This document shows, piece by piece, positions 45 to 31,572 of a stretch of 39,575 nt of DNA (positions within the stretch are counted from its first letter, which is position 1; every line of letters begins with the position of its first letter). The notes under the pieces are model-generated. The model saw only the letters and a list, made by a program, of their open reading frames with translations, was not told the DNA's origin and did no database searches. The position numbers and the translations under genes are program-made. Location: the IMG/VR virus record IMGVR_UViG_3300033182_000347, positions 1-39,575 of that record. One strand, given 5' to 3'. This stretch comes from a virus.

Positions 45-1502
45 ATGAAACGAGCACGAATAGTAATCAAAGACGAAGTCAATGTTAAGATTGAAGGCTT
101 AGAACTTGATACTAGAAAAAAACTAGTAAACCGGTTCAAGTATATGGTGCCACACGCACGTTACTTGCCAGCATACAAGCTAGGACGCTGGGATGGCAAG
201 GTAGCATTCTTCCAAATGGGCGGAAGCAGTTATGTTAACCTGTTGCCTGAAATTATTCCTGTACTAGAAGAAGCCTACTACGATCTAGAATTAGACGATC
301 AGCGCGAGTATTCAACTAACTTTGCGTTTAACGAAGTAACAGAAGATACATTTGCACACATTAAATGGCCCAAGGGACATCCTGTTGAGGGCGAACCTAT
401 TAAACTGCGCGACTATCAAATTGAAGTAGTTAATAACTACTTGCGTAATCCGCAGAGTCTACAGGAAGTAGCTACTGGCGCAGGCAAAACACTTATGACA
501 GCAGCGTTAAGTGCTAGTGTAGAACAGTATGGGCGTAGTATTGTTATTGTACCAAACAAAAGCCTAGTAACACAAACAGAAGCAGACTACATTAACATGG
601 GTTTAGATGTTGGTGTATTCTTTGGTGATAGAAAAGAGTTTGGTAAAACGCATACTATTTGTACTTGGCAAAGTTTAAACAGTTTGTTAAAGAACACACG
701 CAATCAAGTAGCACCTATTACTATACAAGAGTTTTTAGAAGGTGTAGTGTGTGTTATTGTAGACGAAGTACACCAAGCAAAAGCAGATGCACTAAAGAAC
801 CTGCTAACAGGTCCAATGGCTCGTATACCACTGCGTTGGGGTTTAACTGGTACAGTGCCCAAAGAGGATCACGAGTTCCAAACTATACACGTTAGCATTG
901 GTCCAGTAATACATCGTATTGCTGCTAAAGAACTACAAGACCAAGGTGTACTAAGTAGTTGTCACGTTAACATTATACAAATGCAAGATCACTCAGAGTT
1001 CTCAGACTATCAATCAGAACTAAAGTGGCTTACTACTAACGACGAACGCTTGAGTACCATTGGACAAATGTGCGCGGGCATTGCAGAGTCGGGCAATACA
1101 CTTATACTAGTAGACCGTATTGCAGCAGGACAAGCATTAATGGCAGAACTGCCAGACGCAGTATTTGTATCTGGCGCAACCAAAGCGGGCGACCGCAAGG
1201 ATACCTATGACGAAGTTGCTGGAGCTGACGGCAAAATTATTATTGCTACCTACGGCGTTGCCGCTGTTGGTATTAACATTCCTAGGATTTTCAATCTTGT
1301 TTTATTGGAACCTGGAAAGAGTTTTGTGCGAGTTATACAGTCTATTGGGCGCGGAATAAGAAAAGCTAAAGACAAAGACCATGTGCAGATTTGGGATATA
1401 ACAAGTACCTGCAAGTTTGCAAAACGACACTTAACCAAACGCAAGAGTTTTTATAGAGAAGCAAATTATCCTTTTACTCTTGAAAAATATGATTGGAAGT
1501 AA
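45..1502 (+). CDS. uvsW: UvsW-like superfamily 2 DNA/RNA helicase
   Basis: This 485-residue protein is a superfamily 2 helicase of the T4 UvsW type, which in T4 unwinds R-loops and branched DNA and helps switch from origin- to recombination-dependent replication. Visible motifs are Walker A ATGAGKT (residues 143-149, K148), a DEVH box (240-243), the motif III-like GLTGTV, and motif VI QSIGRGIRK near the C terminus. The N-terminal ~110 residues, including GRWDGKV, match the small UvsW N-terminal domain. Length is close to T4 UvsW. The start at 45 is fixed by the promoter just upstream. The next gene follows with a single base between stop and start. Confidence 0.93.
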   Translation: MKRARIVIKDEVNVKIEGLELDTRKKLVNRFKYMVPHARYLPAYKLGRWDGKVAFFQMGGSSYVNLLPEIIPVLEEAYYDLELDDQREYSTNFAFNEVTEDTFAHIKWPKGHPVEGEPIKLRDYQIEVVNNYLRNPQSLQEVATGAGKTLMTAALSASVEQYGRSIVIVPNKSLVTQTEADYINMGLDVGVFFGDRKEFGKTHTICTWQSLNSLLKNTRNQVAPITIQEFLEGVVCVIVDEVHQAKADALKNLLTGPMARIPLRWGLTGTVPKEDHEFQTIHVSIGPVIHRIAAKELQDQGVLSSCHVNIIQMQDHSEFSDYQSELKWLTTNDERLSTIGQMCAGIAESGNTLILVDRIAAGQALMAELPDAVFVSGATKAGDRKDTYDEVAGADGKIIIATYGVAAVGINIPRIFNLVLLEPGKSFVRVIQSIGRGIRKAKDKDHVQIWDITSTCKFAKRHLTKRKSFYREANYPFTLEKYDWK

Positions 1503-1503
1503 T

Positions 1504-2526
1504 ATGAAAGATATAAAAATTAATAGCCACACTGGTTTTCAAAAGTTAAAGTCATGTATAGTTGGCAAGTCGTATCCGCCGGAGTATTATGATATGATTG
1601 AAAACCCTAACGTGCGCGATGTAATGCAACGAGTTGCTCGAGAAACCGAAGAGGATTATCAGAAGTTAATTGGTATAATTGAAGACTTTGGTGCTACTGT
1701 ATACAGACCAGACATAGACCCTACAGATAACTTTGGCAAATACTTAGTAGTTCAACCTGACGGAACACGCAAATACAGTATCCCACCAATGAACCCTAGA
1801 GATCATTTGCTAGTTTATGGCAATACAATGCTAGTTGATCGACCTCACGGCGAACAATACATTGATTTTTATGATCATATACTTGATAGGATTGATGGCA
1901 ATATATTTCATTCTAGAGATTATCCTGTATTGCAACAAATGGCTATGCCTTGTGTGACCCGCGTTGGGCAAGACATCTACTTTGACAGAATAAGTAATCA
2001 ACGTGAAATTAATGATCAATTCTTTAGAGATTACCGTACACACGAAGTACTCACAGGTGGACATCAAGATGGTGTTTTTTGTCCTGTAACTCCTGGACTA
2101 ATAGTTAGTTTGCGTGATGTGCCTACCTACAAAGATACGTTTCCCGGATGGGAAGTGGTGTATCTGCCAGATCAAAGCTGGGACGCAGTTAAAGACTTTT
2201 TGTTGTTAAAACGAAAGAATGATGGAAAGTGGTGGATACCTGGCGAGGAAAAAAATGACGATCTAATAGATTATGTTGAAACCTGGTTAAACGACTGGGT
2301 AGGCTATGTTGAAGAAACGGTATTTGATGTAAACATGTTTGTACTCGACGAAAAGAACGTAATAGTAAACAACTACAATGAACAGGTATTTGAAGCACTA
2401 GAGCGATACGATGTTACACCGCATATTTGCAACTTTAGACATCGATATTTTTGGGACGGTGGCTTGCATTGCATTACCCTTGACCTAGAGCGAGAAGGCG
2501 GGTGCATTGATTATTTTAGCAATTGA
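1504..2526 (+). CDS. Amidinotransferase-like protein, paralogue 1
   Basis: This 340-residue protein resembles the glycine/inosamine amidinotransferase branch of the guanidino-modifying superfamily, which moves an amidino group from arginine to an amine acceptor through a catalytic Cys. The start fits LKSCIVGKS; the catalytic His-x-Asp segment is GGHQDGVF (H187, D189), and the catalytic Cys lies in DGGLHC (C323) near the C terminus. The segment where AGAT has its third catalytic residue (AADFIRAGRD) aligns by eye with PCVTRVGQD here, so that Asp may be absent. The start at 1504 follows the uvsW stop as TAATATG; an upstream in-frame start inside uvsW is less likely. A longer paralogue lies at 30318-31571. 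Substrate unknown. Confidence 0.75.
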   Translation: MKDIKINSHTGFQKLKSCIVGKSYPPEYYDMIENPNVRDVMQRVARETEEDYQKLIGIIEDFGATVYRPDIDPTDNFGKYLVVQPDGTRKYSIPPMNPRDHLLVYGNTMLVDRPHGEQYIDFYDHILDRIDGNIFHSRDYPVLQQMAMPCVTRVGQDIYFDRISNQREINDQFFRDYRTHEVLTGGHQDGVFCPVTPGLIVSLRDVPTYKDTFPGWEVVYLPDQSWDAVKDFLLLKRKNDGKWWIPGEEKNDDLIDYVETWLNDWVGYVEETVFDVNMFVLDEKNVIVNNYNEQVFEALERYDVTPHICNFRHRYFWDGGLHCITLDLEREGGCIDYFSN

Positions 2527-4529: not shown

Positions 4530-5578
4530 TGAGTGTAGTTAACGTTGCAATGTCTAATTTTGTAGAGCAATTAAGAATATGGAATACTTATAAGCAAGTG
4601 TCCGCTGGCATTGACTATAGCGATCACATTGACTATTTTAGTAAACTTCCATGCTATCACTACACTGACATACAATCAATAAATTCATCCAACTTGGACG
4701 TATTAGTCATTGACAATCTCACCGAAGGTTTGCATTCGAAAGAGTACTTTACACAGTACGATAAAACAAAACATTATATTATTATTAGTAACGATACATG
4801 GAATAATGAAACAGACTCGGGTCTTGACGACTATACACTAATTTGGCAACCATTTTTTTTACTTGATTTTGTAAATACTGCAATTTCGTGTTTCAAGTAT
4901 AATTTCTACACTAACAAATTGTATGATTTTAGTTACCCCAAAGACAATGTTTTTATGAGTACAACTGGTAATGTTAGACCGGATAGAACACACTTTATGG
5001 ACCGTGTGCTAACAGATATTCCTTATAATAATTTTATATATAGATATTCTGGAGAAGATTTTGGAAACCCTAGCAACGACCTTGACTTGATAACATTTAA
5101 AAAAGGCGAGTTTGATCCGTATATACCGTACATTAATTCAGAACACTTTGTTAATGTGTCGCAAACTATACCTATAGACCTATACAATAGTGCTTATTTT
5201 AACCTAGTAGTTGAAACAGATCATCGTTTAGATAATTTTTTTCTAACAGAAAAAACAGTTAAATGTTTAGTGACCGGAATTCCTTTTGTTGTATTGTCAA
5301 CTGCAAACTTTCTTACTGGTTTACACAAATTAGGATTTAAAACTTATGCTACTATTTGGGACGAGAGTTACGACAAGATTTTAAATTTTGAAAATCGTGT
5401 CGAAGCAATACGAGAACTTGTACATAGTTTGGGCAATTTAGATTGGAAAAGCAAACAACTTGAACTTGAACAAATTGCTAATCATAACGCCAGAGTCCTA
5501 TTAGGACTTGACAAATTTGCGCATCAATGTTTTAATACACTTGTGGAGGAACTGAATGAGTGCAGACGTAGACATTGA
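4529..5578 (+). CDS. Glycosyltransferase-like protein
   Basis: This 349-residue protein ends with a motif common in phage and bacterial glycosyltransferase-like proteins: TEKTVKCLVTGIPFVVLS then FLTGLHKLGFKTY. It resembles the nucleotide-sugar-binding YVTEK segment of GT10 fucosyltransferases. The N-terminal half has DVLVIDNLTEG and YIIISNDTWN, consistent with Rossmann-like strands. No signal peptide is present. The sequence is more AT-rich by eye than neighbouring core genes, which fits an acquired accessory gene. Its start overlaps the previous stop (TAATG) and its end overlaps the next gene by 23 nt. Sugar donor and acceptor are unknown; phage DNA, virion protein or host glycan are all possible. 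Confidence 0.55.
   Translation: MSVVNVAMSNFVEQLRIWNTYKQVSAGIDYSDHIDYFSKLPCYHYTDIQSINSSNLDVLVIDNLTEGLHSKEYFTQYDKTKHYIIISNDTWNNETDSGLDDYTLIWQPFFLLDFVNTAISCFKYNFYTNKLYDFSYPKDNVFMSTTGNVRPDRTHFMDRVLTDIPYNNFIYRYSGEDFGNPSNDLDLITFKKGEFDPYIPYINSEHFVNVSQTIPIDLYNSAYFNLVVETDHRLDNFFLTEKTVKCLVTGIPFVVLSTANFLTGLHKLGFKTYATIWDESYDKILNFENRVEAIRELVHSLGNLDWKSKQLELEQIANHNARVLLGLDKFAHQCFNTLVEELNECRRRH
5545..5550 (+). promoter_or_regulatory. Strong Shine-Dalgarno inside the upstream gene
   Basis: GGAGGA lies 5 nt upstream of the ATG at 5556, within the end of the glycosyltransferase-like gene. It supports the chosen start of the mini-DnaE-like gene, which otherwise overlaps its neighbour by 23 nt, and suggests strong independent translation. 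Confidence 0.75.
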
Positions 5579-6107
5579 TTTTGGTGACAGAGATAGCGTT
5601 CTAAGTTTAATTAAACATATACCTGCACGTCAACAAGACCGCAAACACAATTCAGGTGTATACGTCACAGACATTCCTGTAGATGCAGTTGCAGGTTGTG
5701 CTGCAATGGATTATAAAGCAGCAGAAGATCTCGGCTACTTTAAAATAGACTTTTTAAATGTTCACGTTTATGAGAACATTAGAGATACAGCTCATTACAA
5801 CGAGTTAATGAGCAGAGAAGCGCCGTGGCATAGATTGATTGATAGCACTTTTGTAGAAAAGGTTATACACATAAACAACTATGCTGATGTCCTTAAAACC
5901 CGAGAAGTAAACTCAATACCACGTATGGCTATGTTTCTTGCTATGATTAGACCAGGCAAGAAACACTTATTAGATGAACCGTGGGACGTAGTTGCAAAAA
6001 CTATCTGGGATAAAACAGACGACGGCTACACATTTAAACAAGCACACGCTGTTAGTTATGCAATGCTGGTTGCACTACATATGAGTATCGTAGATGAAGA
6101 ATTTTAA
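5556..6107 (+). CDS. Miniature DNA polymerase III alpha (DnaE)-like protein
   Basis: The 183-residue product carries, in DnaE order, five landmarks of the C-family polymerase core. DVDIDF (D6, D8) matches PDFDVDF with its two catalytic Asp. SGVYVTD matches the GGVVIAP region. LGYFKIDFLNV (D65) matches GLVKFDFLGL with the third catalytic Asp. FLAMIRPGKK (127-136) matches VALFRPGP. YTFKQAHAVSYAML (158-171) matches YGFNKSHAAAYALV. E. coli DnaE spreads these over several hundred residues and adds PHP, clamp-binding and OB parts, all absent here. Start fixed by a GGAGGA site. Function unknown: minimal polymerase, host replisome decoy or repurposed palm fold. The motif matches are seen; homology is inferred. 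Confidence 0.65.
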   Translation: MSADVDIDFGDRDSVLSLIKHIPARQQDRKHNSGVYVTDIPVDAVAGCAAMDYKAAEDLGYFKIDFLNVHVYENIRDTAHYNELMSREAPWHRLIDSTFVEKVIHINNYADVLKTREVNSIPRMAMFLAMIRPGKKHLLDEPWDVVAKTIWDKTDDGYTFKQAHAVSYAMLVALHMSIVDEEF

Positions 6108-6879
6108 TACTATTATTTTATATTTTTTGCCCAAGTCGGGTGGAAATTTCCTTGGCGCATGCCTTGCACTTGATAAAGAATTTATGTTACATAATACAAT
6201 CTTGGCTGATGCTAATTATAACGAAAAGTTAGAATATTTAACTAGTCAACTTGACTTGGCCTTAGAGACCGGACAATGGACTGATTTTACTCTAGGAAAT
6301 GGACAGATTGGTATAAATCTTAAAACGTTTCTTCTTGATAATTTACCTGGCGGCTATGCAAAGAATATGATACCAGTGCATTCTAAAAAACATTGCGTAG
6401 TTACTCATAATTATCTAGAGCTAGTACAAGCACAAATAATGTATCCAGATAATCAAGTTGTATTGTTTACCAACTCAAAAGATATGATTACCTCACGCAA
6501 CGGAACACCTTATAGATACCGATATGGCACTAAGTTATATAGTTATTGGCAAACTGTACGCGATACTGAATGGCCTGAACTTCCGCCACGCACAGTCAAT
6601 GAATTTGAATTGCTACCGGAGCCCATTCGTGTAGAATTAATTGAATCTTTTAATTCAGACATTTTAAAGTATTTAGATTACACTGAGGAATTTTTAACCG
6701 AGTGGGACCTGCAACCAGCAGATTTTAAAGTTGATGTTGAATATATGTATTCGTCGTTTGAGAATTTTTTTAACGTCTACACAGATGTTTGCAAATACCT
6801 AAATTTAGAAATTGCTAACAAAAGTGATTTGTCACTGCTATTTAACAAGTGGAAAGAGACTACTGCTCAACTCGTTTAA
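6094..6879 (+). CDS. Sulfotransferase-like P-loop protein
   Basis: The 261-residue protein starts with FLPKSGGNFLGA (residues 11-22), which resembles the 5' phosphosulfate-binding loop PKSGTTWL of PAPS-dependent sulfotransferases. A second segment, VVLFTNSKDMITSRNG, resembles the 3' phosphate-binding region (RNPxDxxxS). The C-terminal part with YSSFENFFNVYTDVCKYLNL fits the helical end of such enzymes. It overlaps the previous gene by 14 nt and converges with the next gene, overlapping its end by 20 nt on the opposite strand. The match is partial; another P-loop nucleotide-binding function is possible. With the glycosyltransferase-like gene two places upstream, a glycan-modifying role is plausible but only inferred. 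Confidence 0.45.
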   Translation: MKNFNTIILYFLPKSGGNFLGACLALDKEFMLHNTILADANYNEKLEYLTSQLDLALETGQWTDFTLGNGQIGINLKTFLLDNLPGGYAKNMIPVHSKKHCVVTHNYLELVQAQIMYPDNQVVLFTNSKDMITSRNGTPYRYRYGTKLYSYWQTVRDTEWPELPPRTVNEFELLPEPIRVELIESFNSDILKYLDYTEEFLTEWDLQPADFKVDVEYMYSSFENFFNVYTDVCKYLNLEIANKSDLSLLFNKWKETTAQLV

Positions 6880-12683: not shown

Positions 12684-13841
12684 ATGAGTAAACCATGCCT
12701 GTGGGCAAAACACGGATTAGGTCTACACAACAGCGGTCGAGGCTATTTGTGCTGTCATTCGCGTACATACCTTAAAGATAGCAACGGAGATGACATCTAT
12801 TGGCACACGCATACCCTAGATGATGCATGGGCTAGTCCAACACGACAAGAGATACAGCAAGCACTTGAACAAGGCATTGAGCATCCAAATTGTGATGCCT
12901 GTTGGGACGCTGAACACGCTGGTATATTGAGCAGACGTCAAGCAATTAACGAAATGCTACCAAACTTAGAATCAGGCGCCACACCAAAGCTATTAGACTT
13001 GAAACTCGGCAATACCTGTAACCTATCATGCCGTTGGTGTTGGCCAGAAGTTTCAAGCAAATGGATGGGCGAGTATTATGAAGTTTTTGAAAAGCAGCGT
13101 GGCACCGGTTTAACAGAATACAAAGATAGGTGGCGTTCAATACAACTCAGCTATACAGAACACAACGATACGTTATGGACTGATTTAAAAAGATATATGG
13201 GTGATACAGAGTATATTGATATATACGGCGGCGAACCTTTCCTAACCAAACGTTTATGGGAGATACTAGAATGGTCAGCAGCCGCTAATCATAGTAAAAA
13301 CCAATCACTGCACATCAATACCAATGCTACAATCTGGAACAAGAATTATATAGAAACACTAAAATCGTTTAAGCATGTGCAATTAGACCTAAGTATTGAT
13401 GCTATTGATAAACAATTTGATTATATACGAAACGGCGAAACTTGGGAAAACGTTCAGGTAAACTTAGATCGTTTCCTTGAGCTTGGCAAGCAAGAAAATA
13501 TTGACGTAGCGGTGTGTGTCACAGTAGGCGTGTTTAACATCTATTACCTCGACGAGATACTAGCGTACTTTGACCGCATTGGTGTTGGGTATTTTGTAAA
13601 CTATGTTCATATGCCCGAGATGCAGTGTGTGCGATTTATGCCTGTTGAAGTTAAACAAGCAATTGAAGAAAAGTTAGACGATAGCAATCGTTTTGTTAAA
13701 GATGCTATTGGATTTATGAATTCTCCCGTTGATGACAATACAAAGCAATGGGCAGAGTTTTTGCGATCAACACAAGAGCTAGATAAGATTAGGAACCAAA
13801 GTTTTAAAGAAACATTTCCTGAGTTAGCGAGTTTATTATGA
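12684..13841 (+). CDS. Radical SAM protein with N-terminal cysteine module, paralogue 1
   Basis: The 385-residue protein is a radical SAM enzyme: CNLSCRWC supplies the CX3CX2C cluster ligands (C112, C116, C119) and IYGGEPFL (G182-E184-P185) the SAM-binding motif. Before the radical SAM core there is another cysteine set, C5, C23-C24, C70 and C73 (CDACW), followed by GILSRRQAINEM. This resembles auxiliary iron-sulfur (twitch/SPASM-like) modules, but placed N-terminally. The same set occurs in the protein at 15434-16489. Marine T4-like phages are known to carry such twitch-type radical SAM genes; their substrates are unknown to me. AAGGAA (12673-12678) precedes the ATG. The next gene overlaps by 4 nt (ATGA). 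Confidence 0.85.
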   Translation: MSKPCLWAKHGLGLHNSGRGYLCCHSRTYLKDSNGDDIYWHTHTLDDAWASPTRQEIQQALEQGIEHPNCDACWDAEHAGILSRRQAINEMLPNLESGATPKLLDLKLGNTCNLSCRWCWPEVSSKWMGEYYEVFEKQRGTGLTEYKDRWRSIQLSYTEHNDTLWTDLKRYMGDTEYIDIYGGEPFLTKRLWEILEWSAAANHSKNQSLHINTNATIWNKNYIETLKSFKHVQLDLSIDAIDKQFDYIRNGETWENVQVNLDRFLELGKQENIDVAVCVTVGVFNIYYLDEILAYFDRIGVGYFVNYVHMPEMQCVRFMPVEVKQAIEEKLDDSNRFVKDAIGFMNSPVDDNTKQWAEFLRSTQELDKIRNQSFKETFPELASLL

Positions 13842-14467
13842 TAGAAAGATTAGTTATATTTGGCGATAGTTTTGCCTATGGACAGGGACTAGACAACCGC
13901 CTTGAAGAATGCTACGCTGCCAGAGTAGCACAGCATTTTGGTTGGGAGTTAGTTAACCTTGGTGTACCTGGCGGCAGTCAAGAGTCATCAAAATGGCAAT
14001 TACACGAATTTCAAAAACAAGAAAACTCTGGGAGTAAAAACCTTATACTGCATGGGTTGAGTCATCCAAATAGAATGACTTGGGTTGGTAACGAGCACTA
14101 TCAGGATTTTAACTGTAATCTAATACCAGTTACTATTGGTGATTATGATCAGGGTGTTAAATGGTGCAACGATTTGCAAAAACTATGGGTTAAATGGTGC
14201 CATAGCGAGCAGTGGGAGGAGTATAATGACTGGCATACTGTGCAGGTGTTTAATGCTTTTGCACAACAAACTAAACAACCTATGTTACAGTATTACACAT
14301 ATCATTATCTCAATGATCTCCCAGGAGTTGGGTTAAATTGTTCACTTATGGAGTCGGTTCAGGGTTTGTCACAGGATATGTTCTTTGGACACGGACACCT
14401 AACCGCTGAAGGCAACCAAGTTGTAGCAAATTTTTTAGTTGACTATATAAAACAAAACGTGTTATAA
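13838..14467 (+). CDS. SGNH/GDSL-type hydrolase
   Basis: This 209-residue protein shows the SGNH hydrolase blocks: VIFGDSFAYGQG with nucleophile S11, VNLGVPGGSQ for block II, LHGLSHPNRMTW for block III, and FFGHGHLTAEGNQVV for the C-terminal His block. The residue before the His where DxxH or DxH is usual reads HGH here, so the acid of the triad may be missing or elsewhere. Family members are esterases, acetylhydrolases or lipases. The gene is coupled to the radical SAM gene upstream through ATGA and ends just before the primase promoter. A role in removing acyl groups from a glycan or peptide is possible but not shown. Confidence 0.75.
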   Translation: MIERLVIFGDSFAYGQGLDNRLEECYAARVAQHFGWELVNLGVPGGSQESSKWQLHEFQKQENSGSKNLILHGLSHPNRMTWVGNEHYQDFNCNLIPVTIGDYDQGVKWCNDLQKLWVKWCHSEQWEEYNDWHTVQVFNAFAQQTKQPMLQYYTYHYLNDLPGVGLNCSLMESVQGLSQDMFFGHGHLTAEGNQVVANFLVDYIKQNVL

Positions 14468-14468
14468 T
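14439..14468 (+). promoter_or_regulatory. sigma-70-like promoter of primase, predicted leaderless
   Basis: TTGACT (14439-14444), an 18-nt spacer and TATAAT (14463-14468) overlap the end of the SGNH gene. The GTG start of primase lies at 14475, again 6 nt after the -10 box, predicting a leaderless mRNA. Confidence 0.72.
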
Positions 14469-14474
14469 ACACGA

Positions 14475-15437
14475 GTGATTAATATTCTAAACTACATCAA
14501 TGGTAAAAGAAAGCGTAGCAGTTCTGGGTGGACTAGCTTTAATGCTCCTTGCTGCATACACAATGGTGAATCACCAGACAAACGTATGCGTGGTGGTATC
14601 CTGTTTAGTAATGATACCGACTGGAGCTATCATTGCTTTAACTGCGGTTACAAAACGAGTTTTACGCTAGGCAGAGCAGTAAGTTATAAAGCAAAGCAAC
14701 TATTAACTTGGATGGGTGTTCCTGAAATGGAAATACAGCGTCTAAGTTTAGAAAGTCTAAAGCACAAAGATATCACACAGATTATTGAAGATCGCAAAGA
14801 AGAAGCAGAGCGAGTATTCTTTAAAGAACAAGAACTGCCTGTCACTGCACATTTAATTACGGAAGCAGACACACAGCAGTACGAATACTTGCGCAATCGT
14901 AAAGTAGACAATTATCCGTTTATGACGGACACCGCACAAAAGCGTCCAGGCATACTTGTGCCTTACACTTATGAAAACAAGATTGTAGGACACACCACAC
15001 GTTTTTTAGATGACCGCAAGCCCAAATATCTAAACGATCAACAGCAAGGTTATGTGCTTGGCACAGACTGGCAACACCCAGACTGGCAGTTTGCTATTCT
15101 AACAGAAGGTGTGTTTGATGCGCTAAGTATTAGCGGCCTGGCAGCAATGCACAACACACTAAATGATAAACAAGCAGCAGTATTACGCAGATTAAATCGA
15201 GAGATTGTTGTAGTACCTGACCAGGATAGTGCAGGACTAAAACTGATAGACGCTGCTATTAAATACGGATTCTCAGTAAGTATTCCTGAATGGGCAGATG
15301 ACGTAAAAGACATAAATGATGCAGTTGTACGCTACGGAAAACTACACACTTTGATAAACATTATTAAGCATAAAAATTCAAGTTCAGTTAAAATTAAACT
15401 GGCTCGTAAAGCACTAGCAAGGAAAGTAGAGATATGA
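14475..15437 (+). CDS. 61: T4-type DNA primase (gp61)
   Basis: The 320-residue protein is a DnaG-type primase that makes RNA primers for lagging-strand synthesis with the gp41 helicase. The N-terminal zinc-binding domain has C26/C27, H29 and the pair C54-x2-C57 (HCFNCGYK). The TOPRIM core follows, with LTEGVFDALS (acidic Glu near 213) and VVVPDQDSAG (Asp pair near 250). Length matches T4 gp61. The likely start is GTG at 14475, set by a promoter whose -10 box lies 6 nt upstream. Its stop overlaps the start of a radical SAM gene (ATGA), which separates it from the helicase gene. Confidence 0.92.
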   Translation: MINILNYINGKRKRSSSGWTSFNAPCCIHNGESPDKRMRGGILFSNDTDWSYHCFNCGYKTSFTLGRAVSYKAKQLLTWMGVPEMEIQRLSLESLKHKDITQIIEDRKEEAERVFFKEQELPVTAHLITEADTQQYEYLRNRKVDNYPFMTDTAQKRPGILVPYTYENKIVGHTTRFLDDRKPKYLNDQQQGYVLGTDWQHPDWQFAILTEGVFDALSISGLAAMHNTLNDKQAAVLRRLNREIVVVPDQDSAGLKLIDAAIKYGFSVSIPEWADDVKDINDAVVRYGKLHTLINIIKHKNSSSVKIKLARKALARKVEI

Positions 15438-16489
15438 GTTGGTGCCCAGAAATATATCGAGGTTTGTTCATTCAGCCCGTTGGCAAAGATGGTATCCAAA
15501 TTGCTCCATGCTGCCAGGCTAAAACTCAGCATGTAGATAATACATTTAACTTTTTGACTGATACATATCTAGATCAGCTACGAAAACAAACTAGACCAGA
15601 TGCATGCAATCGTTGTTGGGACATCGAAGACAGCGGCGGCTATAGTAAAAGACAAGCAGCAGTTGATTACTACAACATGCCAGAGAACAGCAATGTTGAA
15701 TTGAATGCATTAGAGTACAATGTAAATTGGTCGTGTAATTTAGCGTGTATAATGTGTGGTCCAGAATTAAGTAGTACTTGGGCAAAAGAATTAAACCTAG
15801 ACAAAAGACATAATAAAATAACACATACACAGAATAATATTATTAAGTGTTTAGATAAATCAAAATTATCCAGAATACATTTCAACGGCGGCGAGCCACT
15901 AATCAACAATGAGCATGTAAAAGTGCTTAACCAAGTTGAAAATCTTAGCGAGTGTAAAGTAACTTATAACACAAATGGAACAAAGTTGCCATCAGATCAA
16001 ACCTTAAAAGTTTGGGAAAAGTCTAAGATGGTACGACTCTTTTTTAGTATTGACGCAACTGAGTCTGCCTTTGAGTATATACGCTGGCCTGGCAAATGGG
16101 ACGAGCTATGTACTAACATTGAGTGGTTCGTCCAGAATAGTCCGTCAAATGTTATGTTTGCACTAAATGTAACTGTTGGCACCTACAACCTCTTAGAGAT
16201 GCCTAAGTTATGGGATTGGTATCAGCAAACCATTCCTACTAACAGAGAAGGTGACCGCACAGAATTTTTTTGGCAACCGGCATACAATTTTGATTACAAT
16301 TGGCTCAATACCGCAGTTAAAGAAGTTGCAAAGGATAAATTAAAACTGTACAACGGGCTAACATCGTTGTATAATAGTATAGATAACACAAGTGCAGCTA
16401 ACGATAACTGGATTAAAAAGTTAGAAGTAATTGATGCAAGAAGAAAAACAAATTGGCGTGAGTCATTGCAAGTAGGTAAATTTTATTAA
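15434..16489 (+). CDS. Radical SAM protein with N-terminal cysteine module, paralogue 2
   Basis: The 351-residue protein has CNLACIMC (C101, C105, C108) as the radical SAM CX3CX2C motif and FNGGEPLI as the SAM-binding motif. Upstream cysteines C4, C26-C27, C58 and C61 (CNRCW) followed by GGYSKRQAAV match the arrangement in the protein at 12684-13841, so the two are paralogues. The DLSIDA-like segment of that protein is FFSIDA here. The gene lies between primase and helicase, joined to both by overlapping signals (ATGA at the front, TAATG at the end), so it should be made at the same time as the primosome. Substrate and partner unknown. Confidence 0.85.
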   Translation: MSWCPEIYRGLFIQPVGKDGIQIAPCCQAKTQHVDNTFNFLTDTYLDQLRKQTRPDACNRCWDIEDSGGYSKRQAAVDYYNMPENSNVELNALEYNVNWSCNLACIMCGPELSSTWAKELNLDKRHNKITHTQNNIIKCLDKSKLSRIHFNGGEPLINNEHVKVLNQVENLSECKVTYNTNGTKLPSDQTLKVWEKSKMVRLFFSIDATESAFEYIRWPGKWDELCTNIEWFVQNSPSNVMFALNVTVGTYNLLEMPKLWDWYQQTIPTNREGDRTEFFWQPAYNFDYNWLNTAVKEVAKDKLKLYNGLTSLYNSIDNTSAANDNWIKKLEVIDARRKTNWRESLQVGKFY

Positions 16490-18175: not shown

Positions 18176-19304
18176 TGTACTAAATGAAGAAACCTACGGG
18201 TTTGACGATGTTAAAACCGCAGCAAGTTCATTCTTAAAGAATCTAATGCGAGGTGCAGGAATTGAAGATGCAAAGCAGTATGCTATGCGTGATCGTGCTG
18301 TGCGTATGATTGCTAAAGGTTTTCAAAACCAGTGGAAAAACATTGTATATGATCTTCGTAGAATGTACGAACCAAACATAAAGAAAGATCTCTCTAAAGG
18401 ACGTCAAAATCTAAGCACAATTGAATCTCGCATAGTAAACTTTATTGCAAACGACATTGGCGCAAGCACTAACAACAAAGAAGTACTTGATGCTAAGAAT
18501 ACTATTATTCGCGCTAGTGTAGATCCTAAAACTGGTGCATATCAAAACCCAGGCAAATTAAACGGTGCAGATGTTGCAAATGCATTTACTCGCATCACTG
18601 CTAATGCTGTTACTAACATTGCATATCAACAACAAAAAGCAGCAACTGGGCAAGATCTGTCTACTTTAAACGACGATCCTAAAGCTCCTGCTAAAATGCT
18701 AGGTAACTCCTACAAAACTAAAAACCCAAATGACTACGGTAAAAGACTTCCTGAACCGTTAGACAAGATGTTTGATAGGTATGGCGACCGACATTGGTAC
18801 GACGATGCTATCATTCCGGTGCAGATTATAGTTGAATACGAAGGTCATGACTATGAAGAGCCAAGGCATACAACGTATGTAAAATTTAATGGCGTATGGT
18901 ACGTTGATTCAAGTAAAAGTTTTAGCGAAATACGCTTTGAAAAAGATGAAACTGCTGCTGCTGAGTCAACTAGATCCGACGCACTATCTCAAACTATGCT
19001 TGAGCGTGTTATTGCGTTTCAAAATACTGGACAGCTATACCCAAATCAATTTGTGCACCAGGTTGACCCACAAACCAAACACTGGAGTATTATTGGGTGG
19101 GCTGGACCTTGGGGAATACGGCGTGTTGAAGATTCTCCAAATAGATATATAGTTCTAAATGCTAGCGACTACGAGATTTGGGCAAAAAACACAGGCAGGA
19201 ATGTTGTTCCTTCAGAAAGTCCTGCTGACTCATGGTATGAAACTCAAATAGAAGTAGAATCATATATAGAAGATAACTTGGAAGATTTAGTTGATGAAGC
19301 TTAA
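18162..19304 (+). CDS. Hypothetical late protein
   Basis: This 380-residue protein is unknown. The first ~150 residues are helical with a basic character (FLKNLMRGAGIEDAKQYAMR, RMIAKGFQNQWKNIVYDLRR). The second half is mixed, with a WYDDAIIPVQIIVEYEG segment and WSIIGWAGPWGIRRVED. There is no signal peptide, membrane helix or recognisable catalytic motif. It is in a late transcript between a small helical protein and a large nucleotidyltransferase-like protein, overlapping both. It might be a virion-internal or packaged protein, by position only. Confidence 0.65.
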   Translation: MKINDVLNEETYGFDDVKTAASSFLKNLMRGAGIEDAKQYAMRDRAVRMIAKGFQNQWKNIVYDLRRMYEPNIKKDLSKGRQNLSTIESRIVNFIANDIGASTNNKEVLDAKNTIIRASVDPKTGAYQNPGKLNGADVANAFTRITANAVTNIAYQQQKAATGQDLSTLNDDPKAPAKMLGNSYKTKNPNDYGKRLPEPLDKMFDRYGDRHWYDDAIIPVQIIVEYEGHDYEEPRHTTYVKFNGVWYVDSSKSFSEIRFEKDETAAAESTRSDALSQTMLERVIAFQNTGQLYPNQFVHQVDPQTKHWSIIGWAGPWGIRRVEDSPNRYIVLNASDYEIWAKNTGRNVVPSESPADSWYETQIEVESYIEDNLEDLVDEA

Positions 19305-21177
19305 TGAAGGCGGCAACGTATTTAAAACAGCGGACAAAGAGCCTGCTACCATTCGCATCAACAGAGATGATGTGCGTCCTACTATTGCTTGGCTTGAGCA
19401 AGTTACAGGCTTGCAATTACTAGGCATGGAACTTGGCACAACAGGCAAAAAGTCTACCTCCGGCGACTTAGATATCGCTGTTGATGAAAACACTACATCA
19501 AAAGATGATTTGGTTAAAATATTATTAGGCTACCTGAAAAAGTATTACCCAGACGAAGATCCAAAACAGTGGATTAAAAAGTCAGGCATTAACGTACACT
19601 TTAAAACACCTATTCGTGGCACAGCCAACCGAGGCTTTGTACAAACAGATTTTATGTTTGTGCCAGATGTCCCATACGCCAAGTATGCACTACACTCTGC
19701 GCAAGATTCAAACTTCAAGGGTATGCATCGCAATATCCTATTAAACTCTATTGGTAAAGCTATTGGTTACAAAGTAAACCAAACTCAAGGTTTAATGGAT
19801 AGAGAAACAAATGAACTAGTATCCAACGATTGGGATCAAATCGCTAAATTGTTGCTTAACCCAAATGCTCGTCGTGAGGATTTGCACAGCGTTGAAACTA
19901 TTATGAACGCACTTGCAAACGATCCAAAGCGGGACATTAAGATCAAGGACGCTGCTGAAACTTTTGCAAGAGAAGGACTATCACTTGATATGGGTGTTAG
20001 TGAATCATACTTCCTAGCAAAGTTGCGTGATCGTATTGCAACACCAGGCATTTATGGACTATACGAAAGCGAGATCCTAACGGAAGGCGAAGCTCGCATA
20101 CCGCACTTGGAAGATTTAGTATTCCAAGGCGCACCTGGTATCCAACGTGTTATCAAGTTCTTGACTGACTCGCACAAGATGGGTGCTCACACTACTATTA
20201 AGTGGGATGGTCGTCCTGCTATTATTTTCGGCCGCAACGAAAAAGGCGAGTTTGTGTTAACGGACAAAGGCGGCTTTACTGCCACAAAGTATGATGGCAT
20301 GGTAACCAAGCCTGGCGGTTATGCTGAGATGTTTGGTAATCGCAACGGCGACTACTCTGGTCTTATTAAAATGTACAAGACTATCTTCCCGTTGCTAGAG
20401 CGAGCAGTTCCTGAAGACTTTCGTGGCTACATTCAAGGTGACTTAATGTATGTTGGTCGTCCTACTAAGCGCAATGACAAGTATTCGTTCACACCAAACA
20501 CTGTAACATACGAAGTAGATGCTAACAGTGACATTGGTCGTATTGTTGGTAAATCAGATATGGCCGTCGCTATTCACTCGTACATTGATGCACCTGGTGG
20601 TAAAACAGTTCCACTTAAACACGCACCACAGGAGCTACAACATTCTCCAGGTGTGGTAATGTTAGATCCAGAGTTTGACTCAGCACCAGATATGCGTCTA
20701 AGTCAAGCAGAAGAACACCTAGTAATGAACTTGGAAAAGGTTGCTCCAGCAGCAGCACGTTTTATGGATCCTAGTGCATATCGCGCACTAAAACTGTCTA
20801 ACTTGCCTGAACTGATCAAACAGTATGTTAATATGCGTGTTCGTTCTGGACACTACGATAACTTTGAGCAAGGTTTCTTAGAGTGGATTGACACAAGCAA
20901 TCAGTCACAGGCTAAGATTCAACGCATTAAAGAATACGTTACCAATGACGAAGAAGGCTTTACTGCACTGGTAAATGCTTTCTTGATTGCAAGTGCTGTT
21001 AAAACACAAATTGTTAAGAACTTGGATCGTCAAACAGGCCCTGTTACTGCACACATTGCAGGCGAGCCAGGACACGAAGGATATGTAACAGACGCAGGCG
21101 ACGGTGCTATTAAACTGGTAGACCGTATGCGCTTCTCAAGTGCTAACTTTGCTAAAAACAACCCAGATCTAAAGTAA
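19294..21177 (+). CDS. Large protein with nucleotidyltransferase-like and ligase-like motifs
   Basis: The 627-residue protein appears to join two nucleotidyl-transfer folds. Near the N terminus, TTGKKSTSGDLDIAVD (D58, D60) and FVQTDFMFV (D119) match the Pol-beta nucleotidyltransferase pattern G-S-x-DxD...D. In the middle, TIKWDGRPAIIFGRN (K303, D305, G306, R307) resembles motif I (KxDGxR) of ATP-dependent ligases and capping enzymes, and YIQGDLMYVGRP (379-390) resembles the following (D/E)GE(L) motif. The C-terminal third is helical. Large proteins of this sort occur in marine myoviruses without known function, as I recall. Start ATG 19294 overlaps the previous gene. Both domain calls are by eye; either could be degenerate. 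Confidence 0.6.
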   Translation: MKLNEGGNVFKTADKEPATIRINRDDVRPTIAWLEQVTGLQLLGMELGTTGKKSTSGDLDIAVDENTTSKDDLVKILLGYLKKYYPDEDPKQWIKKSGINVHFKTPIRGTANRGFVQTDFMFVPDVPYAKYALHSAQDSNFKGMHRNILLNSIGKAIGYKVNQTQGLMDRETNELVSNDWDQIAKLLLNPNARREDLHSVETIMNALANDPKRDIKIKDAAETFAREGLSLDMGVSESYFLAKLRDRIATPGIYGLYESEILTEGEARIPHLEDLVFQGAPGIQRVIKFLTDSHKMGAHTTIKWDGRPAIIFGRNEKGEFVLTDKGGFTATKYDGMVTKPGGYAEMFGNRNGDYSGLIKMYKTIFPLLERAVPEDFRGYIQGDLMYVGRPTKRNDKYSFTPNTVTYEVDANSDIGRIVGKSDMAVAIHSYIDAPGGKTVPLKHAPQELQHSPGVVMLDPEFDSAPDMRLSQAEEHLVMNLEKVAPAAARFMDPSAYRALKLSNLPELIKQYVNMRVRSGHYDNFEQGFLEWIDTSNQSQAKIQRIKEYVTNDEEGFTALVNAFLIASAVKTQIVKNLDRQTGPVTAHIAGEPGHEGYVTDAGDGAIKLVDRMRFSSANFAKNNPDLK

Positions 21178-24300: not shown

Positions 24301-25209
24301 ATGAGCAAATATGTAATTCCCAAAATAGAATTTTACATTACTAATATGTGTAACTACGGTTGCAGCAATTGTAATCGTTTTAACAACCTAAACTTCCGCG
24401 GCCATCAACGTTGGGAAGATTATGCAGACGTAATGGAAGAATGGGGTGAGTATATTGATATTAAACATCCAATCATACTAGGCGGCGAGCCACTGCTTAA
24501 TCCTACTATTAAAGATTGGTTGCACGGCATTCGTAAAATTTGGCCTTGGCCTGATACAGGCGGCATCCAAGTACTAACCAATGGTACGCAACTAAACAAA
24601 GTAAAAGGTTTATACGAAGCAATGCGCGATACGCAAGCCTGGCTTGGTGTGAGCTTACATAACTTAGATGACTTTGAAACTATTGATGCAGCGATACGAG
24701 AATTTTATAATAACGACTTTGAAGAAGTATCTGCATCCAAAAACCGAGATGCCGGTGGTATTGGCGCCGATTGGTATTATAAAAAGAACAACACCGAATT
24801 TGCAGGTATATGGACTCAGAACGTATTTTATAATAGTGCAATCAAAGCAATGGATCCAAATGGTATAACGTTATACAACTCAAATCCAACTCAAGCACAC
24901 GAAAACTGTACTATGCGTCGCTTTAAAAATTATCACTTTATTGAAGGCAAAATTTATAAATGCGGACCTGTTGCTCTATTCCCGCAACTGGAAGAACAAT
25001 TTGGGTTAAATTTATCAGACGAAGATAAGAAACTGTTAACCTCATACCAACCATTAACAATTGAAATGGCCAGAGAGGGTCTAACTGAAGAATGGTTTAG
25101 TCATATTGATGACGAGATACCGCAATGTAAATTTTGTCCTGAACACTACGATTGGGTTGAAACTATTTCAACCGACGACTTGTATAAAAAGATCAGCAAA
25201 AGATCTTGA
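24301..25209 (+). CDS. Radical SAM protein, third copy
   Basis: The 302-residue protein has the radical SAM motif CNYGCSNC (C17, C21, C24) close to its N terminus and LGGEPLLNP (G61-P64) for SAM binding. It lacks the N-terminal cysteine module of the other two. Extra cysteines occur instead at the C-terminal side, CTMRRFKNYHFIEGKIYKCG and CKFCPEHYDW, a pattern consistent with an auxiliary iron-sulfur cluster as in SPASM or twitch proteins. It thus belongs to a different subgroup. It lies between late-type and early-type genes, with a predicted leaderless start. Substrate unknown; no obvious small peptide substrate is beside it. Confidence 0.85.
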   Translation: MSKYVIPKIEFYITNMCNYGCSNCNRFNNLNFRGHQRWEDYADVMEEWGEYIDIKHPIILGGEPLLNPTIKDWLHGIRKIWPWPDTGGIQVLTNGTQLNKVKGLYEAMRDTQAWLGVSLHNLDDFETIDAAIREFYNNDFEEVSASKNRDAGGIGADWYYKKNNTEFAGIWTQNVFYNSAIKAMDPNGITLYNSNPTQAHENCTMRRFKNYHFIEGKIYKCGPVALFPQLEEQFGLNLSDEDKKLLTSYQPLTIEMAREGLTEEWFSHIDDEIPQCKFCPEHYDWVETISTDDLYKKISKRS

Positions 25210-28047: not shown

Positions 28048-30318
28048 ATGTCAGATATTATCGTGACCAAGCGAGATGGTCGCAAAGAGGCTCTGGACCT
28101 TGAAAAGTTTCACAAGGTAGTATTTTGGGCCACAGAAGGCATCACTGGTGTAAGCGCATCAGAAGTAGAATTAAGAAGCCACGTTCAGTTTTATAGTGGC
28201 ATTACAACAGCAGCAATACAAGAAACACTTATTAAAGCAGCCGCTGATCTTATTTCAGAAGAAACTCCAAACTATCAATATGTAGCAGGACGACTAATTG
28301 TATATCATTTGCGCAAGCAGGTATACAATGATTACAAACCTTGCCACATTCGCCAACTTGTCCAGGATAATGTAGAGCGTGGACTTTACGACCCTGAACT
28401 TCCAAATCTTTACGACAACGCAGAATGGGACTTTATCAACTCGTTTATCAAGCACGAGCGCGATGAGAGCCTAACATACGCTGCTATGGAGCAAATGCGT
28501 AGCAAGTACTTGGTACAGAATCGTGTAACTAAGACTGTTTACGAAACTCCGCAGATGGCCTATGCTCTTATTGCTGCTGTGCTGTTTGCAGATTATCCTA
28601 AGGATACTCGTATGCGTTGGGTAAAGGACTATTATGACGCTATTAGTACGCATCAAATCTCGCTTCCTACGCCAGTAATGGCAGGTGTGCGTACTAGTCA
28701 GCGTCAATTTTCTTCTTGTGTGCTGATTGAAACAGATGACTCATTAGATTCAATTTCAGCAACAGCAAGCTCGGTTGTTAAGTATGTTTCGCAACGTGCG
28801 GGCATTGGTATTGGTGCAGGCCGCATCCGTGCTATCAACAGCCCAATCCGCAAAGGCGATGCTTACCACACAGGTGTTATTCCTTTCTTTAAGCATTTCC
28901 AATCAGCAGTAAAGTCGTGTAGCCAAGGCGGTGTGCGCGGTGGTGCTGCTACACTATACTATCCTATTTGGCACTACGAAGTTGAAGACCTGCTTGTTCT
29001 CAAAAACAACAAAGGCACAGACGACAACCGTGTGCGTCACATGGACTATGGCATTCAGTTTAATAAACTGATGTACGAGCGTTTGCTATCTGGTGGTGAC
29101 ATTACACTGTTCTCGCCCAATGACGTTCCGGGCTTGTATGATGCTTTCTTTGCTGATCAGGATCGGTTCAAAGAACTATACGAAACAGCAGAGCGTAACA
29201 CACGCTTACGCAAAAAGACAGTTCGTGCGCAAGACTTGTTCTCACAGTTTATGGGCGAGCGCAAAGACACAGGTCGTATCTACTTGATGAATGTAGACCA
29301 CGCTAATACACACGGCTCATTTAAACCTGAACTAGCACCAATTAAGCAATCAAACTTGTGTTGCGAAATTGACTTGCCTACAAAGCCACTAAACGATGTA
29401 CACGACCCAGAAGGTGAGATTGCACTGTGTACACTGAGTGCTATTAACTGGGGTGCATTTAAGCATCCTGCGGATATGCAGAAAGCGTGTGACCTAGCAG
29501 TGCGTGGCTTAGATGCGTTATTGTCGTATCAAAACTATCCTATCCTAGCAGCGCAGATTGCAACAAACAATCGTCGTCCGTTGGGTGTAGGTATTATTAA
29601 CTTGGCATACTTCCTAGCCAAGCATGATGTAAGTTACTCAAATCCAGATGCACTAGAACTAGTAGATACTTGGGCACAGCACTGGAGTTACTACTTGATT
29701 AAAGCAAGTGCAGACTTGGCAGTAGAGCAAGGTGCTTGTCCACTCAGCAACGAAACAAAGTATTCGGACGGTGTATTGCCAGTTGATACTTACAAGCGTG
29801 ATCTTGACGAGCTAGTAGCACACACAGATAAAGTAGACTGGTCAGGCTTGCGTGAGCAGTTGAAAGAAACAGGCATCCGTAACTCAACACTAATGGCACT
29901 AATGCCAGCAGAAACTTCTGCGCAAATCTCAAATGCTACAAACGGCATTGAACCACCACGCAGTTATGTGTCAGTTAAGCAGTCAAAGGACGGAATTCTT
30001 AAACAAGTAGTCCCTGAGTTTAGACGTTTAAAGAATAAGTACGAATTACTTTGGGATCAAAAGTCGCCTGAAGGTTACTTGAAGATTATGGCTGTGCTAC
30101 AGAAGTATATCGATCAAGGCATCAGTGTAAACACTTCATACAACCCTCAGTTCTTTGAGGACGAAAAGATTCCAATGTCGGTTATGCTACAGCACTTATT
30201 GATGTTCTACAAATACGGTGGCAAACAATTATACTACTTCAATACTTACGATGGACAGGGTGAGATTGATGTGAACACTATGAACGACGAGGAAGACTGC
30301 GAGTCTTGTAAAATTTAA
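28048..30318 (+). CDS. nrdA: Ribonucleotide reductase class Ia, large subunit
   Basis: The 756-residue protein converts ribonucleoside diphosphates to deoxy forms for phage DNA synthesis. It begins with an ATP-cone (TKRDGRKEALDLEKFHKVV). The active-site cysteines are C224 (FSSCVLIE), C438 (SNLCCEIDLP) and C461 (ALCTLSAINWG), one residue off the E. coli numbering 225/439/462, and the radical-transfer end is present. The C-terminal thiol pair is CESC, more compact than in E. coli. Length matches the family. The next gene, an amidinotransferase, overlaps its stop (TAATG) and separates it from nrdB. Confidence 0.97.
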   Translation: MSDIIVTKRDGRKEALDLEKFHKVVFWATEGITGVSASEVELRSHVQFYSGITTAAIQETLIKAAADLISEETPNYQYVAGRLIVYHLRKQVYNDYKPCHIRQLVQDNVERGLYDPELPNLYDNAEWDFINSFIKHERDESLTYAAMEQMRSKYLVQNRVTKTVYETPQMAYALIAAVLFADYPKDTRMRWVKDYYDAISTHQISLPTPVMAGVRTSQRQFSSCVLIETDDSLDSISATASSVVKYVSQRAGIGIGAGRIRAINSPIRKGDAYHTGVIPFFKHFQSAVKSCSQGGVRGGAATLYYPIWHYEVEDLLVLKNNKGTDDNRVRHMDYGIQFNKLMYERLLSGGDITLFSPNDVPGLYDAFFADQDRFKELYETAERNTRLRKKTVRAQDLFSQFMGERKDTGRIYLMNVDHANTHGSFKPELAPIKQSNLCCEIDLPTKPLNDVHDPEGEIALCTLSAINWGAFKHPADMQKACDLAVRGLDALLSYQNYPILAAQIATNNRRPLGVGIINLAYFLAKHDVSYSNPDALELVDTWAQHWSYYLIKASADLAVEQGACPLSNETKYSDGVLPVDTYKRDLDELVAHTDKVDWSGLREQLKETGIRNSTLMALMPAETSAQISNATNGIEPPRSYVSVKQSKDGILKQVVPEFRRLKNKYELLWDQKSPEGYLKIMAVLQKYIDQGISVNTSYNPQFFEDEKIPMSVMLQHLLMFYKYGGKQLYYFNTYDGQGEIDVNTMNDEEDCESCKI

Positions 30319-31571
30319 TGAAAAAATATAATATTTGGAATAAATGGGATCCTCTTAAATCTGTAATGCTCGGTAGCTGTTATTCAGCAGACTTTTTTAA
30401 AGATATTAAGAATGACCGTATACGTTCAGCTCTAACACAAATTGCTGATGAAACTATGGCAGATTTAGAATACTACGAAAGTGTACTCAAAGATTTTGGC
30501 TGCGAAGTAATACGCCCAGAGCTTGATCGCAATGATTCAATTATGAATTACATCAATGAGGATGGCGCAGTAAAAGGTAACCAAGGAGTTCCGCGATCGC
30601 CGTTACAGCCGCGAGACACTCAGGTAGTAATTGGAAACGAATTATTCTTTACCCATAATGATCATTCGTCAATAAAGAAAGCTCTTACTGAATACTGCTC
30701 GGATATAAAAACATTTGAACTTCCAATAAACATTAAGTCGTTCAACGGATATAGAGGAGGCGAAGCTCCTGACTGGCCATCATACGAAGAATATATTGAA
30801 AGATTTGATTCAAAGCAATTCTCAGATAACCCAGATATTCAAGCCGAGTTTGAAGAAATTCATAAACATTACGCAGGTGTAGACTATGAACCGCATTATC
30901 CTATTTCGGCTCCGTCAATAACTGTATTAGGTAAGGATCTATATCTCGACACAGTTCGCATGTCTGAACATGACCAACACATAGCGTATCAAGATTACTA
31001 CACTAAAAAGTTTGACGAGCATTACGCAAAAACATTTAGACTTAACAAGTTAACAGTTGGTGGGCATAATGATGGTTGTTTTCATGTTGTAAAGCCTGGT
31101 GCAATCTGTAGTATTGAAGAGATACAACGATATAATGATACATTTCCTGGATGGGACGTTTGCTTTCTAGAAGATCAAAGCGGATATGCAGATGCTGTTC
31201 GAAAATTCCGAAAACTCCGAGACACTGTAGGAGGCAAGTGGTGGGTGCCTGGGCAAGAAGATAATGATGAGTTTACTCATTTTGTTGAGTCTTGGTTGAA
31301 CACTTGGGTTGGCTATGTAGAAGAAACTGTGTTTGATGTGAATATGCTTGTTCTCGATGAAAAACATGTTTGTGTTAGCCAACAAAACAATGAACAAGTG
31401 AATAAATTCTTAAAAGCACACGGTATGGAGCCAGTTTATGTTCCGTGGCGTCATAGATACTTCTGGGACGGCGGATTACATTGTATTACTTTAGATTTAT
31501 ATAGAGAAGGAGCACAGCAGGACTATTTCCCAGAGCGCAGCGGATCTGTGCATGATAAAGGATTTGATTAA
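30318..31571 (+). CDS. Amidinotransferase-like protein, paralogue 2
   Basis: The 417-residue protein is a paralogue of the one at 1504-2526 and about 75 residues longer, mainly through extra sequence between residues 120 and 190. The shared core includes LKSVMLGSC at the start, GGHNDGCF (H250, D252), the nearly identical [18 protein letters not shown], and [14 protein letters not shown] (C389). Where glycine amidinotransferase has the AADFIRAGRD segment, this reads [10 protein letters not shown], so the usual third catalytic Asp may be replaced by Ser. It lies between nrdA and nrdB, joined by TAATG and TAATATG, so it should be made with the reductase. Arginine or a related guanidino compound is the expected substrate; the product is unknown. 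Confidence 0.75.
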
Positions 31572-31572
31572 T

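Follow-up and report, generated by a model that had tools for sequence, protein, structure and literature searches.

Two radical SAM proteins, here called A and B, are encoded around the primase gene of a T4-like environmental phage. Both belong to the NCBIfam family N_Twi_rSAM (NF033640), entitled "twitch domain-containing radical SAM protein", which has a name but no characterised function, occurs widely in phages of this kind and in some of them is massively expanded. Judging from sequence and predicted structure, each protein begins with a twitch-like domain of ~75 residues, which carries four conserved cysteines and precedes the radical SAM barrel. The two genes belong to distinct cassettes and do not make up a single two-enzyme machine. 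The stretch analysed, hereafter the window, is all 39,575 nucleotides of IMG/VR record IMGVR_UViG_3300033182_000347, in which the following features bear on the argument:

1480..2526, + strand: amidinotransferase-like protein; the alignment of its family shows a conserved HxD and a conserved HC at the C-terminus, and in other phages the family tends to lie close to N_Twi genes
12684..13841, + strand: A, putative N-terminal-twitch radical SAM protein, 385 aa; auxiliary cysteines C5, C23, C70, C73, core C112/C116/C119
13838..14467, + strand: SGNH/GDSL-like hydrolase, 209 aa (PF00657 at gathering score, E=6.7e-5)
14475..15437, + strand: DNA primase, T4 gp61-like, zinc-finger and Toprim (phrog_47 E=1e-26; Toprim_2)
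15434..16489, + strand: B, putative N-terminal-twitch radical SAM protein, 351 aa; auxiliary cysteines C4, C26, C58, C61, core C101/C105/C108
16489..17892, + strand: T4 gp41-like (DnaB-like) replicative helicase, which anchors the slot held by B (phrog_19 E=1e-72)
24301..25209, + strand: third radical SAM protein (PF04055 E=1e-10; NF033640 19.8 bits only)
30318..31571, + strand: second amidinotransferase-like protein (phmmer, best E=5e-7)

The initial annotation placed an SGNH hydrolase and a primase between the two radical SAM genes, and the coordinates confirm this. A, the SGNH-like gene, primase, B and the gp41-like helicase follow one another with a 4-nt overlap, a 7-nt gap, a 4-nt overlap and a 1-nt overlap at successive junctions. 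In the window, A is also convergent with a series of virion-like genes. By sequence and profile, the third radical SAM protein has an ordinary layout, core first and cysteines C-terminal, and is not an N_Twi member.

Family membership and the N-terminal module

A carries C5, C23-C24, C70xxC73-W74, G80-I-L-S83-R-R85-Q-A and the core C112xxxC116xxC119, and the corresponding elements of B are C4, C26-C27, C58xxC61-W62, G68-G-Y-S71-K-R73-Q-A and C101xxxC105xxC108. They share the four N-terminal cysteines, the CxxxCxxC core and an ExxGxxSxR stretch, so the N-terminal cysteine set and radical SAM motif first described in both proteins are as reported. Their similarity (BLASTP, 26% over 232 aa, E=1e-17) reflects homology beyond chance. 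Both match the radical SAM domain PF04055 (E=3.9e-11 for A, 5.4e-9 for B), and the CX3CXphiC and GGE(P) motif residues are near-invariant in the family alignment. Against NF033640, A scores 296.6 and B 197.4 bits, above the curated cut-off of 170 and over the full length of the model (5-397 and 4-391 of 398). The architecture is thus already catalogued, and its novelty is not supported: A and B have the same four-cysteine module and core as the family, with no structural difference. The family model comes without a function, and its description includes neither the primase-helicase slot nor the oxygenase cassette reported below. Among the papers searched, none mentions N_Twi_rSAM or speaks of an N-terminal twitch with this meaning, and none describes the two conserved cassettes.

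The cysteines equivalent to C5, C23, C70 and C73 are all kept in 145 of 149 full-length homologues, a set not chosen by DNA pattern but picked with the family profile, so that a slight circularity remains. Conservation of the N-terminal cysteines, on which the initial annotation had made its proposal depend, therefore holds. C24, the second of the CC pair, is found in 79% of the same homologues and W74 in 40%, while Q86 reaches 25% in the full set of 274. From these aligned sequences, the constrained set is thus the four cysteines rather than the CC pair or the tryptophan. Beyond the N-terminal module and the core, no cysteine column exceeds 30% among the 149 homologues, in agreement with the earlier description of an auxiliary-type module ahead of the core and no usual C-terminal cluster site.

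Several features point to a twitch domain. A fits CX9-15GX4C ... CX2C, the first half of the seven-cysteine motif, as C5-x12-G18-x4-C23 ... C70xxC73; B is one residue off (G20-x5-C26), and the strict first part of the SPASM/twitch motif fits 109 of the 149 homologues. The full PF13186 (SPASM) model aligns to residues 5-74 of A just under threshold (E=0.0017; 19.0 bits against a gathering score of 21.5) and gives no match in B, while matches at E<=0.01, the best at 2e-11, are seen in 37 of 45 members of the family. In the AlphaFold2 models (pLDDT 95.4 for A, 91.0 for B), the predicted order in A is C5, a hairpin (11-14/19-21), C23, a helix (52-62) and C70xxC73, the order of elements in twitch domains (PMC6231123). 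A and B would thus share with BtrN, SkfB and MoaA a single auxiliary-cluster site and the sequence C, hairpin, C, helix, CxxC, and BtrN likewise has four cysteine ligands. The difference is one of position: in those enzymes the twitch follows the barrel, while in A and B it precedes it, so that the customary location C-terminal to the barrel does not apply, and no conserved cysteine follows the core. SkfB further differs in its RRE domain and CX33CXC ligand set. A CxxC pair and a total of four cysteines would also fit a structural zinc site, which would make A and B single-cluster enzymes, but the SPASM/twitch homology of those 37 members and the twitch-like order of secondary structure elements make this highly improbable. 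Family membership and twitch identity of A and B we regard as nearly certain.

A and B occupy separate cassettes

In the tree, A and B fall into separate clades, each with SH-aLRT 100. On this sequence evidence they are old separate lineages and not a duplicated pair; a recent duplication was rejected. Relatives of B were gathered by a motif scan that gave none with B alone and worked with the clade alignment, the diverse family alignment having no conserved stretches sufficient for such a scan.

In every viral B locus that shows both the gp61 primase and the gp41 helicase, B lies between them (73 of 73), a count that, like the other synteny and gene-company counts given here, is confounded by the common descent of these phages. 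Relatives keep B at most two genes away from primase and helicase; of 28 A loci, 24 have nothing in this slot. Since primase and helicase join directly in sister phages that lack B, B is an insertion in the operon, and its location there means that it is probably co-expressed with the genes for replication. The region around primase and helicase is a hot spot for insertions.

SGNH-like genes occur within 9 kb of 49 of 79 B loci as against 2 of 38 A loci. The association first drawn between the SGNH gene and both enzymes thus survives for B and fails for A; as a partner of A the SGNH protein was rejected, since it follows B in relatives. The SGNH gene of the window belongs to the family found upstream of the primase in B loci. 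A peptide-pattern search of viral contigs found no close relatives of it, and the wider family was reached via B loci; its groups other than that of the window mostly lack a Pfam match and were joined to it through a profile comparison (Prob 91, E=1e-6) and visual inspection.

A has different company. A 2OG-oxygenase-like gene adjoins it in 36 of 39 loci, three of them away from the primase; the family has an invariant HxD...H...RxS and neither a Pfam nor a PDB match, so its assignment is from motif alone. In loci L007, L274 and L276, A lies elsewhere yet keeps the 2OG-like partner, without the structural-looking gene with which A is convergent in 33 of 39 loci. In phage G042, too, A adjoins a 2OG-like gene.

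The initial annotation proposed that A, the SGNH protein and B act as one unit on a shared substrate. In the window the genes from A to B are indeed contiguous with overlapping ends, and another N_Twi gene lies near A in 16 of 38 A loci. Co-occurrence in one phage was found in the window, in G042 (a true A and B) and in G001 (A with a relative in the B slot). Most phages, in contrast, have A or B without the other: the window is the sole locus with members of both strict clades, and an A orthologue is present in one of six B records longer than 40 kb (G042). With SGNH genes accompanying B and 2OG-like genes accompanying A, the shared unit is very doubtful, and separate clades, separate gene company and mostly separate phages speak for two cassettes.

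Proposed chemistry and substrates

In both enzymes, the four N-terminal cysteines would fully ligate one auxiliary [4Fe-4S] cluster beside the active site. The core cluster would reduce SAM to give a 5'-deoxyadenosyl radical, which would abstract a hydrogen atom from a substrate carbon, and the auxiliary cluster could take the second electron of a BtrN- or anSME-type two-electron oxidation. The feature compatible with a BtrN-like dehydrogenase, which oxidises an alcohol and has a fully ligated cluster, is the four-cysteine ligand set only. Such oxidative chemistry has about an even chance of being right. From gene company, the substrate may be a glycan or sugar-like tailoring substrate of a phage-modified cell surface or virion, with A acting in sequence with the 2OG-Fe(II)-oxygenase-like protein and B with the SGNH-like protein in esterase or acyl-transfer chemistry. 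This glycan reading also draws on the GDSL, PhyH and sugar epimerase neighbours of N_Twi genes in cell-derived contigs, on the amidinotransferase-like, glycosyltransferase-like and KdsA/KdsB company described below, and on the lack of a peptide precursor gene nearby. A glycan-type substrate is plausible at somewhat under even odds, and the whole chain, from N_Twi membership and twitch to oxidative tailoring of a glycan or similar in two separate cassettes, is tentative.

Against the glycan chain, the nearest solved folds are the peptide-modifying CteB, SkfB, SuiB and anSME. These best Foldseek matches, to enzymes that modify peptides and proteins, would suit modification of protein side chains, as by an anaerobic sulfatase-maturating enzyme or by a peptide maturase whose target is a large protein. 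A could act on a tail fibre or another protein of the virion, given its convergent structural-looking gene and the virion-like run in the window, and B on a replication protein, given its operon. The structural similarity, however, is that of the common barrel; displaced A genes retain the 2OG-like partner and not the structural gene, no conserved small ORF lies near A or B, and family members in other phages and in cells keep glycan-type gene company. We consider the protein reading unlikely, if worth keeping in view. A RiPP maturase with a local precursor was rejected, as no small ORF family occurred in more than five loci near A or B. A search for an RRE domain gave no Pfam match at E<=1, and the twitch-like module occupies the N-terminus.

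The invariable place of B between primase and helicase, together with viperins among the structural neighbours, could instead indicate that A and B modify nucleotides, DNA or RNA, making a hypermodified base or a viperin-like nucleotide. The direct primase-helicase junction of B-less sister phages marks B as an insertion, and cell-derived relatives adjoin GDSL (5 of 85), PhyH (4) and sugar epimerase genes, which makes this improbable. Viperin identity was rejected: viperins and prokaryotic viperins share the radical SAM barrel and a weak profile match with A and B, which score 30.6 and 35.6 bits against model NF038283, far under its cut-off of 180. Viperins are not known to carry a comparable auxiliary module at the N-terminus.

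Family expansion in T4-like phages

The proteins themselves are unsurprising, and the usefulness of the analysis lies in genomic anchoring. B, as the gene between primase and helicase, gives a syntenic marker for dozens of uncultivated phages; a single oxygenase-like family accompanies A, and N_Twi members are linked to amidinotransferase-like genes. This supplies concrete gene sets for expression and assay of a family that reaches 21 copies in one 98-kb viral record.

Many radical SAM genes per T4-like phage are a common feature of three cases in the portions of the sources available: a marine group with 12 such genes (PMC5332604), multi-radical-SAM pelagimyophages with their cassettes (PMC7029224), and Campylobacter phages CP220 and CPt10, whose radical SAM clusters each come with a putative glycine amidinotransferase (PMC2853527). 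Those portions make no mention of an N-terminal twitch or of the primase-helicase slot. The Campylobacter proteins match our model in the barrel only.

It is conceivable, though rather unlikely, that N_Twi enzymes together with amidinotransferases, 2OG oxygenases, SGNH proteins and glycosyltransferases build an undescribed decoration of the host surface or virion, possibly bearing guanidino groups, with N_Twi as an expandable toolkit in environmental T4-like phages and B fixed in the replication operon. In 7 of 11 cases, an amidinotransferase-like gene and an N_Twi gene are no more than 2 kb apart (expected 1.3, p=1e-4). The product of 30318..31571 in the window matches SxtG, HsvA and arginine:glycine and inosamine-phosphate amidinotransferases by phmmer, over its C-terminal 65-70 residues. 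N_Twi genes occur in the cultured Vibrio phages K566 and QD01; four of those in K566 alternate with glycosyltransferase-like genes (Glyco_transf_8). A relative from Synechococcus phage S-SCSM2R is flanked by KdsA/KdsB on one side and by 2OG genes on the other.

A twitch module ahead of the radical SAM core

Two radical SAM genes, A and B, lie within a compact run of the window, a virus record of 39,575 nt whose gene content is T4-like (UvsW-like helicase, primase, DnaB-like helicase, ribonucleotide reductase and tail spike):

12684-13841 (+), radical SAM protein A, 385 aa
13838-14467, SGNH-like protein
14475-15437, T4-like primase gp61
15434-16489 (+), radical SAM protein B, 351 aa
16489-17892, T4-like helicase gp41

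Successive gaps between these genes are -4, 7, -4 and -1 nt. The initial annotation placed A and B and their cysteines correctly, as checked on the sequence, and the two proteins are homologues (26% identity over 232 residues). Both cover nearly the full NCBIfam model NF033640, 'twitch domain-containing radical SAM protein' (N_Twi), with 296.6 bits for A and 197.4 bits for B against a curated cut-off of 170 bits. Residues 5-74 of A match Pfam SPASM over its full length, below threshold, and 37 of 45 relatives match it as well. These matches show that the auxiliary-cluster-like module proposed to precede the core is real; it is not new, as the family already carries a name.

The SPASM motif reads CX9-15GX4C-gap-CX2CX5CX3C-gap-C, twitch is its one-cluster half, and four cysteines ligate the cluster of BtrN (PMC6231123). 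A fits the first half of this motif exactly (CX12GX4C...CX2C); in B the spacing is one residue longer. In the AlphaFold2 model of A (pLDDT 95.4; B, 91.0), the twitch elements run in the order C5, hairpin 11-14/19-21, C23, helix 52-62 and C70xxC73. At least 120 stretches of viral contigs and at least 120 of genome contigs match a degenerate DNA pattern; among 149 full-length homologues not matching it, 145 keep all four N-terminal cysteines, the conservation on which the proposal depended. C24, the second cysteine of the CC pair, is conserved in only 79% of these 149, which have no further conserved cysteine columns beyond the N-terminal four and the core. A third radical SAM protein of the window (24301-25209) has its core first and its cysteines C-terminal. 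Two further window proteins without Pfam matches (4529-5578 and 6094-6879) may be glycosyltransferase-like and P-loop sulfotransferase-like, respectively.

Two orthologous groups rather than a pair

When viral contigs were scanned with clade alignments of A and B, a gap in BLAST score separated both groups from the remaining homologues, leaving 38 loci plus the window for A (at least 300 bits) and 79 plus the window for B (at least 225 bits). Each forms a single clade (SH-aLRT 100); the sister of B is a B-like clade (L010, L074, L248, L262, L271, L371; support 93), and the outgroups nearest A include proteins from Bacteroidetes contigs.

Their neighborhoods differ too, although the synteny counts come from contigs of related phages and are hence not independent (54 B and 16 A sequences after dereplication). 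B lies between primase and helicase in 73/73 loci showing both genes, as sole occupant in 55. Primase and helicase are directly adjacent in 24 of 28 A loci, where the B slot is thus empty. SGNH-like genes occur within 9 kb in 49/79 B loci versus 2/38 A loci. The window's SGNH family sits just upstream of the primase in B loci, as in the window, and a second family, linked to it by profile comparison (Prob 91, E=1e-6), sits on one or the other side of B within the primase-helicase interval. A instead keeps a 2OG-oxygenase-like gene within two genes (36 of 39 loci), from a family with an invariant HxD...H...RxS and without Pfam or PDB matches. Apart from the window's own SGNH gene, the SGNH- and 2OG-like labels derive from motifs, profile links and sequence reading. 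The A/2OG pair is retained at sites apart from the primase in three loci (L007, L274, L276).

A and B, first taken for a pair, are therefore better described as two orthologous groups with separate clades and surroundings. Their co-occurrence is possible but mostly absent: a 347-kb record (G042) has the A/2OG pair away from the primase and, between primase and helicase, a true B, and G001, which carries A's closest relative, fills the B slot with a diverged N_Twi gene. At 70000-86000 of G001 (L378) primase, N_Twi, helicase, N_Twi and N_Twi stand in a row; the helicase-adjacent slot is a repeated landing place for the family (G001, L378). In several related loci the helicase is directly followed by a radical SAM group of another kind (cluster 20), and the cluster of the window's DUF6267 protein (19291-21177; PF19782, E=4e-42) is found downstream of it in many.

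Chemistry and substrate

An auxiliary cluster that is fully ligated, next to a radical SAM core, fits two-electron oxidation, as in BtrN and anSME (PMC6231123), and A and B, each predicted to hold one such cluster, may act in the same manner. Foldseek matches to CteB, SkfB, SuiB, anSME, viperin and MoaA all run over the barrel; proteins of uncultured phages resemble the models over their full length (TM up to 0.91). The main alternative, protein modification, draws on the best-matched folds being those of peptide enzymes and on a structural-looking gene adjoining A (convergent in 33 of 39 loci), yet no precursor peptide is conserved near A or B. Nucleotide modification is less likely, since both proteins fall below the viperin cut-off. 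The neighboring 2OG, SGNH, amidinotransferase and sugar genes suggest that the enzymes tailor a glycan or a similar, sugar-like compound. Synechococcus phage S-SCSM2R has a relative amid KdsA, KdsB, glycosyltransferase and 2OG genes, Vibrio phage K566 intersperses four N_Twi genes with glycosyltransferase-like genes, and GDSL and PhyH families are among N_Twi neighbors on cell-derived contigs.

Of 11 amidinotransferase-like genes in eight large records, 7 have an N_Twi gene no more than 2 kb away, where random placement would give 1.3 (p=1e-4). This link extends to N_Twi phages one described for Campylobacter phages, which have 11-12 radical SAM genes and a putative glycine amidinotransferase in every cluster (PMC2853527). 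The window's two such genes are 10-14 kb away from A and B:

1480-2526, amidinotransferase-like protein 1, conserved HxD and C-terminal HC
30318-31571, amidinotransferase-like protein 2, conserved HxD and C-terminal HC

Ribonucleotide reductase subunit genes (28048-30318, 31552-32703) flank protein 2.

Family expansion

The highest counts of NF033640 matches are 21, in a 98-kb record, and 19, in two others. Six viral records of 73-205 kb (G035, G018, G028, G019, G002, G007) hold 16-21 each, many in tandem. Accumulations of radical SAM genes have also been described for a marine T4-like genome, with 12 of them (PMC5332604), and for pelagimyophages, in cassettes (PMC7029224). By the genes they carry, genome contigs L164 (gammaproteobacterium bin) and L204 (Pelagibacter bin) look phage-derived, which makes a viral origin possible for some of the 'cellular' N_Twi genes. 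Three or four consecutive N_Twi genes occur on genome contigs L139, L187, L207 and L229, several of them from Bacteroidetes.
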